From contig JAOUJW010000025.1 in NCBI GenBank assembly GCA_029882975.1, forward strand, positions 1 through 64,000: DNA of 64,000 nucleotides, written 5' to 3'. Below are positions 36,756-38,651 of this stretch, one piece after another. The notes under the pieces are model-generated. The model was not told the DNA's origin. It did not search any database and saw nothing but the letters and a program-made list of their open reading frames with translations. Position numbers and translations under genes: made by a program. Position 1 is the stretch's first letter. The number at the start of each line of letters is the position of its first letter. Origin of the DNA: Gammaproteobacteria bacterium. Its GTDB lineage: Bacteria; Pseudomonadota; Gammaproteobacteria; SZUA-152.

Positions 36756-36783
36756 TTGAATTGTTTGATTTTTAAACTATTCT
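36756..36783 (+). promoter_or_regulatory. Candidate promoter of the small transcript
   Basis: TTGAAT and TATTCT are separated by 16 bases, starting 18 bases after the thpR stop. It would start transcription near 36790, about 75 bases before the 14-codon ORF. Motif match only. Confidence 0.45.
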
Positions 36784-36864
36784 TTTATGAAGGCGTTGTT
36801 CCATAGACATACCAGGGGTGTTTGTGGGGCGTTGTGTTAACACCCTGATAAAGGAGGTGATCAC

Positions 36865-36909
36865 ATGTCTAATGACAGTATGTGTGCTGCTTCCGGAGCT
36901 ACTTGTTAA
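36865..36909 (+). CDS. 14-residue peptide with Cys at its end
   Basis: ATG at 36865 is preceded, at a 7-base spacing, by AGGAGG within a 12-base exact anti-Shine-Dalgarno match. That is far stronger than at any other start in the window. The peptide is MSNDSMCAASGATC, with two Cys (residues 7 and 14), followed by TAA. It is too short for a normal gene call. It could be a leader peptide, a small regulatory peptide or a very short precursor of a modified product. There is no modification enzyme next to it. Evidence is the ribosome-binding site and the bounded transcript only. Confidence 0.45.
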   Translation: MSNDSMCAASGATC

Positions 36910-36980
36910 CGCCCAGGTTCGCCTGGAAGCTCCACTACGTCTCGGGTACTGCTATAGAACCCGTAAGATGTCGCGAAAGA

Positions 36981-37016
36981 AAAGCGGATGGTGTCACCAC
37001 CATCCGCTTTTTCTTT
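36981..37016. terminator. Strong bidirectional rho-independent terminator
   Basis: Thirteen-base arms AAAGCGGATGGTG and CACCATCCGCTTT enclose the loop TCAC, with T5-C-T3 after it on the plus strand. On the minus strand the same stem is followed by TTTTCTTT, so it can also end the convergent GAF/HDAC transcript, whose last stop is at 37042. Confidence 0.9.
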
Positions 37017-37041: not shown

Positions 37042-37629
37042 CTATGTTCGCAGTTTATTCTCTAACATTTTGATTTTCTTACCCATATCCTCTGAGATGC
37101 GAACCATTTGCTGACGTATGAATACGTTTTCCACATGCATTTGGATGTGAAAAGCCACCTTGCGCAGTGTTTCCTTGTCCTCGTCGCTGTAATGACCGGC
37201 ATCGATTTTGTTCAATACTTGGATTGCCCCTGTCACTTTGTCCTTGGTCACGCCTTTGATGGGTACGCAAAGTGAATCCCGACTCACAAAGCCGGTCGTG
37301 ACATCCACCGTATCATGGGCACCCACCGTATTTTCCAGATCGTACTCTTCCGCCATATTACCGCTGGATACCACCTGCCCCACAATGGAGTTCCACTTGG
37401 GTACGGTTATCTGTCGTTGTTTCACGCCGGTACCGCATTGTAGCCAGAGATTATCCTCTACCGGATCTAATACAAAAATACTGCACCGTTCCACGTTGAG
37501 AACTTTGGGTACCAGTTCCACAAAAAATTCAATCAGTTTCTGATTGCTGACTTTCTCCCAAGCGCTATCTATAACTTGTTGTTTTTTCTTTAATTCATGC
37601 AGTTTTTGTTGAAGAACCTGTTTTTCCAT
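37042..37629 (-). CDS. GAF domain protein with flanking coiled coils
   Basis: The start at 37629 (MEKQVLQQKLHELKKKQQV), with AAGGA upstream, gives 195 residues; the frame continues upstream into the HDAC gene without a good start. An N-terminal coiled coil (1-25), a GAF domain (about 28-165; NVERCSIFVLDPVEDNLW, GAHDTVDVTTGF, SLCVPIKG, GAIQVLNK) and a C-terminal coiled coil are seen. GAF domains bind small ligands or cyclic nucleotides. No output domain is attached, so it may regulate a partner. It lies 14 bases downstream of the HDAC-family gene and probably shares its transcript. Confidence 0.85.
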   Translation of the reverse strand: MEKQVLQQKLHELKKKQQVIDSAWEKVSNQKLIEFFVELVPKVLNVERCSIFVLDPVEDNLWLQCGTGVKQRQITVPKWNSIVGQVVSSGNMAEEYDLENTVGAHDTVDVTTGFVSRDSLCVPIKGVTKDKVTGAIQVLNKIDAGHYSDEDKETLRKVAFHIQMHVENVFIRQQMVRISEDMGKKIKMLENKLRT

Positions 37630-37643
37630 TACCGTCGAATTCC

Positions 37644-38651
37644 TTACACATCGTGGGATTCCAGAAGCTCTGACAGTACCGCACACCACGCGGCTGCCAA
37701 ATTGTCGCGGTTGTAGCCTCCCCCACCCATAGCCAATATACGACCGCTGGCGTATACATCGGCAATTTTGCATAAACGTTTAGCCGCATAGTTGTGGGCT
37801 TGTTCTGATAACTGCAAATGAGTGATAGGATCACCACCCAAGCTGTCGGCACCACACTGTAACAATATGAACTCAGGCCGAGCCCGCTCCAAAAAGGCTT
37901 CCGCTTGCGGCCAACGCGCCAAAAATTGCTCATCCGTGGCTCCGGGTGCCAGGCAGATATTCAACTTACTTCCCTGCGCAAGGCCTTCACCGGTTTCATA
38001 CTCAAATCCGGTCCCCGGATACAAGTAATTACCATCCTCGTGAAAATCCACAAAACACAGATCCGGATCTTCAACAAAACTGTAAAACACGCCATCGCCA
38101 TGGTGGGCATCTATATCCACATAAGCCACACGTTTTACACCGTAACATTGACGCAGTACTTCAATGGCAATGCCACAATCATTGAATACACAAAAGCCGG
38201 ATGCACTGTTTCTACGCGCATGGTGTAATCCCGCAATGGGAACAAAACCTCGGTTAAACTCACCCGTCATAATGCGGTTCACCGCGTCAACCACACAACC
38301 CACGACTGTCATAGCCGATTCGTAAATTCCTCGTCGTGCCGGGGTATCACCCTGGTCCAGATATCCCACGCCCAGCTTGGACATCGACCGGACTTTTTGC
38401 ACATACTCCTTGGTATGAAATAATTCTACGGTTGACTCATCGCCGCTCAGGGGTTCCAAAAGTGAAATCTCCGGATGTTGAAGCAGTCCCTGTTGTTGTG
38501 CCTTTTGCATAAAGGCATCATGCCGATCCGGGCCGAATGGATGCCCCTCTCCGAATCCGTAGTCCGCCAAAGCTTTGCCTTGATATAAACAAGTATGCGC
38601 CACCGATTTCTCCCGATTAGCTGGAATCGCATTCATTTTAGTATACAACAT
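37644..38651 (-). CDS. Histone deacetylase superfamily (AcuC/AphA-like) amidohydrolase
   Basis: A zinc-dependent deacetylase of 335 residues. Active-site segments are in order: GLHHARRNSASGFCVFND (two His of the charge relay), DIDAHHGDGVFYSF (metal-binding Asp and His), YLYPGTGFEYETG, LLQCGADSLGGDP (metal-binding Asp) and GGGGYNRDNLA. Bacterial members act on acetylpolyamines or acetylated proteins such as acetyl-CoA synthetase (AcuC). The start is uncertain between 38651 and 38636; neither has a clear ribosome-binding site. The GAF gene follows closely, which could couple its activity to a ligand. Confidence 0.9.
   Translation of the reverse strand: MLYTKMNAIPANREKSVAHTCLYQGKALADYGFGEGHPFGPDRHDAFMQKAQQQGLLQHPEISLLEPLSGDESTVELFHTKEYVQKVRSMSKLGVGYLDQGDTPARRGIYESAMTVVGCVVDAVNRIMTGEFNRGFVPIAGLHHARRNSASGFCVFNDCGIAIEVLRQCYGVKRVAYVDIDAHHGDGVFYSFVEDPDLCFVDFHEDGNYLYPGTGFEYETGEGLAQGSKLNICLAPGATDEQFLARWPQAEAFLERARPEFILLQCGADSLGGDPITHLQLSEQAHNYAAKRLCKIADVYASGRILAMGGGGYNRDNLAAAWCAVLSELLESHDV

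Follow-up and report, generated by a model that had tools for sequence, protein, structure and literature searches.

A structured mini-mRNA with an extended Shine-Dalgarno sequence in Gammaproteobacteria, related in kind to the CC2171 RNAs

The 64,000-nucleotide stretch of gammaproteobacterial DNA analyzed here (the window) contains an intergenic gap that, judged by sequence comparison, encodes a real and conserved RNA of ~220 bases that is patchily present across the Gammaproteobacteria. This free-standing mini-mRNA is, on balance, probably a ribosome-docking RNA that is poorly translated and in which the peptide is no more important than the RNA structure. The closest known kind of RNA is the extended-Shine-Dalgarno (SD) mini-mRNA, represented by Bradyrhizobium rreB (Hahn et al., 2017, RNA Biol 14:1353) and by CC2171, a Caulobacter RNA catalogued in Rfam as an sRNA (RF01867). 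The window RNA appears to work like the CC2171 RNAs but is not a member of that family.

A free-standing transcription unit and its relatives

Positions 36790 to 37016 of the window hold up as a free-standing transcription unit on the forward strand, the strand of all of its elements described below. The upstream neighbor on the same strand is a LigT-like phosphoesterase gene and the downstream neighbor is a convergent GAF-domain gene (37042 to 37773), so that the unit stands alone. Every element listed in the initial annotation, including a promoter-like pair, SD sequence, ATG, open reading frame (ORF), UUCG hairpin, and terminator, was found where it had been placed. The 5' end of the RNA is expected near 36790, behind a putative sigma-70-like promoter (36756 to 36783) composed of TTGAAT (36756 to 36761), a 16-nucleotide spacer, and TATTCT (36778 to 36783). 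Two relatives (G132 and G248) carry TTGACG-16-CATAAT at the equivalent position; however, the window pair was not listed by a simple promoter scan of the interval, whose single match equaled the shuffle expectation, and the promoter call, based on position and on the counterpart in the two relatives, is weak and only plausible. The intrinsic terminator (36981 to 37016) has a 13-bp stem in the stem-loop AAAGCGGATGGTG-TCAC-CACCATCCGCTTT (36981 to 37010), followed by a T-rich tail, and may double for the convergent gene at 37042. The folding energy of the interval is -100.8 kcal/mol, compared with -69.2 (SD, 4.7) for shuffles, and much of the resulting z value of -6.7 is contributed by the long terminator and by hairpin P2, described below.

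Pattern and covariance searches identified seven relatives, giving eight members in three bacterial families and supporting the proposal of the initial annotation that a structured RNA with an unusually strong ribosome site is transcribed here. G002 was the sole relative recovered by a nucleotide search of related genomes, whereas G004, G075, and G396 came from patterns requiring the SD, start, and C-terminal codons with loose spacing, and a five-sequence covariance model added G393 (E value, 5e-23), G132 (1.5e-10), and G248 (2.7e-9). Position-matched named contigs are JAKEGK010000140 (G002), JAADGF010000038 (G004), and CALZJE010000033 (G075), the last from an uncultured Ectothiorhodospiraceae metagenome-assembled genome (MAG). 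The RNA was found in 3 of 24 genomes of the family of the window and in 3 of 13 of the family of G075, counts that include many incomplete MAGs; the search of the class (369 genomes) used stricter filters. Neighboring genes differ among the six members checked. In G393 (L034:1501-1860), the RNA gene lies directly upstream of a tRNA-Arg(tcg) gene.

Searches of plasmid and phage nucleotide sequences returned terminator-like matches only, an exact-pattern scan of viral contigs gave no match, and no Rfam family matched the window at its gathering threshold. Sub-threshold matches to Ms_IGR-8 and STnc390 cover mainly the terminator, and one to L20_leader was at chance level. A candidate second copy of 39 nucleotides (G000:C8, L003) lacked the SD, the start, and the fold alike and was attributed to chance, and pattern matches in two genome contigs (L011 and L015) were discarded as out of frame. 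Weak model matches in family f1 (E values, 0.03 to 1), G304, and G235 were dropped because their element sets were incomplete.

The initiation block

The extended SD AAGGAGGTGATC (36851 to 36862; 36851 to 36864 with its spacer) is a perfect 12-nucleotide complement of the anti-SD at the canonical gammaproteobacterial 16S 3' end, against which all complementarity was scored, the assembly having yielded no 16S tail. The ATG is at 36865, with GGAGG seven bases upstream. This match, reported together with its spacing in the initial annotation, exceeds chance: AAGGAGGTGATC occurs once in the 5,184,259 bases of the assembly (both strands), and further matches within the window appear only with two mismatches. 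The SD and the AUG-UCU that follows it are common to all eight members, each of which contains GGAGGUG. The longest continuous anti-SD match among the relatives is 15 nucleotides, and that of G393 is only 7. In folds computed without pseudoknots, the SD region is ~25 to 49% unpaired. Ordinary phage genes may have SDs of equal length, so that SD length by itself does not identify such an RNA. Extended SD-anti-SD helices are established as shaping start selection in Staphylococcus aureus (PMC13009471).

RNA architecture

The members share a fixed order of elements: GCGU; a hairpin (P2) with a CAGGG loop; a linker; CCCUG; 5 to 9 nucleotides; GGAGGUG; AUG-UCU; a second hairpin (P3); and the terminator, which in each relative follows P3. 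The 5' GCGU, the left side of the proposed helix P1 (36793 to 36796), is found in 8 of 8 members and in the window can be extended to GGCGUU (36792 to 36797); its complement is the ACGC at 36909 to 36912. P2 (36798 to 36830) is formed by arms at 36798 to 36808 and 36820 to 36830 around the loop motif at 36813 to 36817, with a stem of ~9 to 12 bp across members. The comparison of relatives by covariance, which the initial annotation had suggested, uncovered further members and also supported this hairpin: among five sequences, 7 of 11 pairs had changed on both sides and 98% of cells were paired. The covariation score was 0.405, compared with 0.255 after shuffling and at most 0.125 after sliding. 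G132 and G248 again use different bases with the pairing kept. The CCCUG complementary to the P2 loop (36843 to 36847), a candidate pseudoknot partner, is invariant in all eight members and in the window lies 5 nucleotides upstream of GGAGG.

P3 (36880 to 36940) pairs ORF codons with the 3' untranslated region in the fold of every member, with the helix starting at about +11 in most. Its apical region contains the stop codon and the ACGC. Support for P3 comes from some two-sided changes and from the refolding of the diverged G132 and G248 sequences with the ACGC kept at +45. All eight members have the ACGC at exactly +45, although the ORF is 14 codons long in six of them and 11 codons long in the other two; RNA geometry best accounts for this fixed position. 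The comparison of members thus directly shows P2, P3, the conserved initiation block, and the constant distance from the start codon to the P3 loop. The GCGU-ACGC and CAGGG-CCCUG pairings are proposed contacts that carry no covariation support because both are invariant. The UUCG hairpin (CCAGG-TTCG-CCTGG, directly 3' of the stop codon) is present in the window sequence, as annotated, but in no other member; in the relatives these bases pair with the ORF as part of P3, and the minimum-energy fold of the window likewise forms P3.

The ORF and its peptide

The ORF (36865 to 36909) encodes the 14-residue peptide MSNDSMCAASGATC. Five other members also have 14 codons (MSNRCIIGAPGGTC, MSHRCIIGFSGGAC, MSNECINGASGGTC, MSNRCMYRTSGGTC, and MSNGCINGASEGAC), and all six of these peptides end in Cys; the remaining two have 11 codons and lack the C-terminal Cys (MSNGCIEVLTG and MSDGCIEVLTG). 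Every peptide begins with MS[N/H/D]. The internal Cys is residue 7 in the window and residue 5 in all seven relatives. The pooled pN/pS for the six 14-mers is ~0.68, and of 13 columns at each codon position, 8, 6, and 8 are variable at positions 1, 2, and 3, respectively. The Cys codons at positions 5 and 14 are within or beside the P3 pairing.

Protein constraint on the ORF is therefore weak at best, and the conservation of the reading frame is below that of the RNA. The initial annotation had offered a metal-binding peptide, a precursor peptide, or a dual-function RNA and had looked to codon-level conservation of the two Cys residues for support of a peptide. That support did not materialize, since the pair is not fixed, and a pN/pS of ~0.7 weakens the Cys-peptide reading further. 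No conserved neighborhood of maturation genes, as would be expected for a precursor of a ribosomally synthesized and modified peptide, recurs near the element among the neighbors of six members, which leaves distant enzymes in play. The dual-function RNA fits best of the three options, with SD, AUG, and RNA folds in 8 of 8 members. Retention of SD and AUG in every member is unneeded for a purely noncoding RNA, and it is very likely that ribosome engagement belongs to the function.

Comparison with known small RNAs

Spot 42/SpfP and SgrS/SgrT are dual-function sRNAs that have a tiny ORF and a terminator and pair with mRNAs through a seed. The window RNA resembles them in being short and structured, with a small ORF and a terminator, but its invariant exposed block matches 16S rRNA instead.

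The resemblance to CC2171 is closer. Like the window RNA, CC2171 RNAs are free-standing and short; they have GAAAGGAGGUGAUCC followed by AUG/GUG-UCU, an ORF of 14 to 31 codons, and a helix that begins near codon 3 and ends shortly before the terminator, as in the window family. The initiation block GAAAGGAGGUGAUCCA-[A/G]UGUCU of the gammaproteobacterial family is also found in CC2171 RNAs; relative to the CC2171 block GAAAGGAGGUGAUC..[A/G]UGUCU, the gammaproteobacterial members are near-identical, the window having UAAAGGAGGUGAUCACAUGUCU. The CC2171-type helix between early codons and the preterminator region is present in the gammaproteobacterial members as well. Among 45 nonredundant alpha- and gammaproteobacterial members, early codons pair better with the 3' region of the same RNA than with one swapped in from another (0 of 2,000 permutations), although GC-rich terminators are a partial confounder and individual ranks are modest. 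The CC2171 covariance model did not match the window up to an E value of 5. Its best match among the relatives was G396 (22.9 bits; E value, 0.0042, in a 281-base stretch), which is below the gathering threshold of 75 bits but full length and anchored on the initiation block. The alphaproteobacterial CC2171 RNAs that were read differ from the gammaproteobacterial family in their short leader, where neither P2 nor a pseudoknot is visible, and their peptides, e.g., (V/M)SHCHQP..., are unrelated. The likeness may reflect either common descent or convergence.

The RF01867 model had matches in 111 of 397 Pseudomonadota genomes at an E value of 0.01. The loci that were read are short ORFs preceded by GAAAGGAGGUGAUCC, usually with a terminator-like hairpin downstream. 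They form a large alphaproteobacterial set of mini-mRNAs (L038 to L067 and L071 to L087) with ORFs of 14 to 31 codons and peptides of the VSHCHQP.., MSSE/D..EQP, KRCHLAGIAR, and MSHGS..GSV types. One gammaproteobacterial contig (G113:C34, L068:308-430) has a CC2171-like mini-mRNA encoding MSSEINMVSVQPLDLGLETTTGFVLS behind GAGAGGAGGTGATCCA. Viral-catalogue contigs L093, L094, L096, L100, L104, and L108 contain mini-mRNAs that are rreB-like (KRCHLAGIAR) or of the VSHCHQ type, some of which, near contig ends, may be the host flank of prophages. In three large viral contigs (L102, L105, and L106), the same extended SD precedes an identical 47-residue ORF (MSEDYDDRAANDL...), and the terminator-like stretch AGGAGGTCATCACGACTCCT comes after it.

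The VSFTKRCHLAGIAR loci matched by the CC2171 model are ones that we take to be rreB. This Bradyrhizobium mRNA is reportedly 165 nucleotides long, with a 17-nucleotide SD, a GUG start, and a 14-residue product, and is said to be bound to 30S and weakly translated. Both rreB and the window RNA are monocistronic mini-mRNAs with a 14-residue product and an exceptionally long SD, of 17 nucleotides before GUG in the former and 12 before AUG in the latter. The initiation block and the helix between codon 3 or 4 and the terminator are likewise common to them. The window RNA and its longest relative (15 nucleotides against the canonical tail) fall short of the at least 16 nucleotides of SD complementarity that marks the rreB/rreR type. 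By inspection, the rreB peptide (KRCHLAGIAR) and the window-family peptides have nothing in common beyond the first two residues, [M/V]S. P2, the P3 geometry, and GCGU/ACGC set the window family further apart from rreB.

Proposed function and alternatives

In the proposed mechanism, the extended SD, the AUG, and two codons lie between two hairpins, both of which have a loop that is complementary to another segment of the RNA. Pairing of the SD with the 16S tail over 11 to 15 nucleotides in most members would anchor the 30S subunit firmly. The base of P3, near +11 on the mRNA entry side, would have to melt before elongation, and melting would also break the GCGU-ACGC contact. With 30S anchored and P3 still to melt, initiation would be slow and most of the RNA would reside on 30S. 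Productive translation would remodel the RNA, probably exposing it to decay. Output would then be set by ribosome engagement, as in mini-mRNAs of the rreB/CC2171 type, and the peptide may be, to some extent or entirely, a by-product. A stronger version, in which a two-pseudoknot scaffold offers a perfect anti-SD match and start codon to parking 30S subunits and senses or titrates free ones, with the tiny ORF as a release step only, is doubtful.

We prefer a model in which ribosomes control the output of the RNA itself to one in which a free peptide has a function. The conserved 14-codon length in 6 of 8 members, together with MSNxC, makes a functional peptide possible, but a gene whose MSNxCxxxxSGGTC product does the work (e.g., as a thiol- or metal-binding micropeptide), with RNA structure tuning translation, is unlikely. 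The shared C-terminal Cys, the MS[N/H/D] start, and Cys5 in 7 of 8 members speak for it; against it, codon position 3 is no more variable than position 1, the Cys codons overlap P3, and two members have an unrelated C terminus on an unchanged RNA scaffold. The 14-codon length may itself be a consequence of the fixed +45 loop (UGACGC), in which the stop codon lies.

A trans-acting base-pairing sRNA with a secondary ORF would suit an intergenic, monocistronic, structured RNA with its own terminator, and CC2171 is catalogued as an sRNA. The most conserved exposed candidate for pairing, however, is the SD-AUG block, complementary to 16S rRNA, and the remaining invariant blocks complement each other, which makes this reading improbable. 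A hairpin and pseudoknot directly before an SD, with a short ORF and terminator, also recall the layout of a riboswitch or attenuator. Such a cis-acting leader is very improbable and largely refuted by the neighborhoods: the window and the members examined have no conserved same-strand gene downstream that it could regulate, the downstream gene of the window is convergent, neighbors vary, and a tRNA gene comes next in G393.

Significance

Extended-SD mini-mRNAs are a puzzling and little-understood group known from the Alphaproteobacteria, and the window family carries this group into the Gammaproteobacteria. It is a set of mini-mRNAs with an elaborate covarying architecture that adds an extra structured half to the alphaproteobacterial types. 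The loci read here also indicate that CC2171, an "sRNA" in Rfam, is a class of coding-type mini-mRNAs present in many alphaproteobacterial genomes. Since peptide and RNA constraints separate in G132 and G248, the family would offer a direct route to the question of whether such mini-mRNAs act through their peptides or through ribosome binding.
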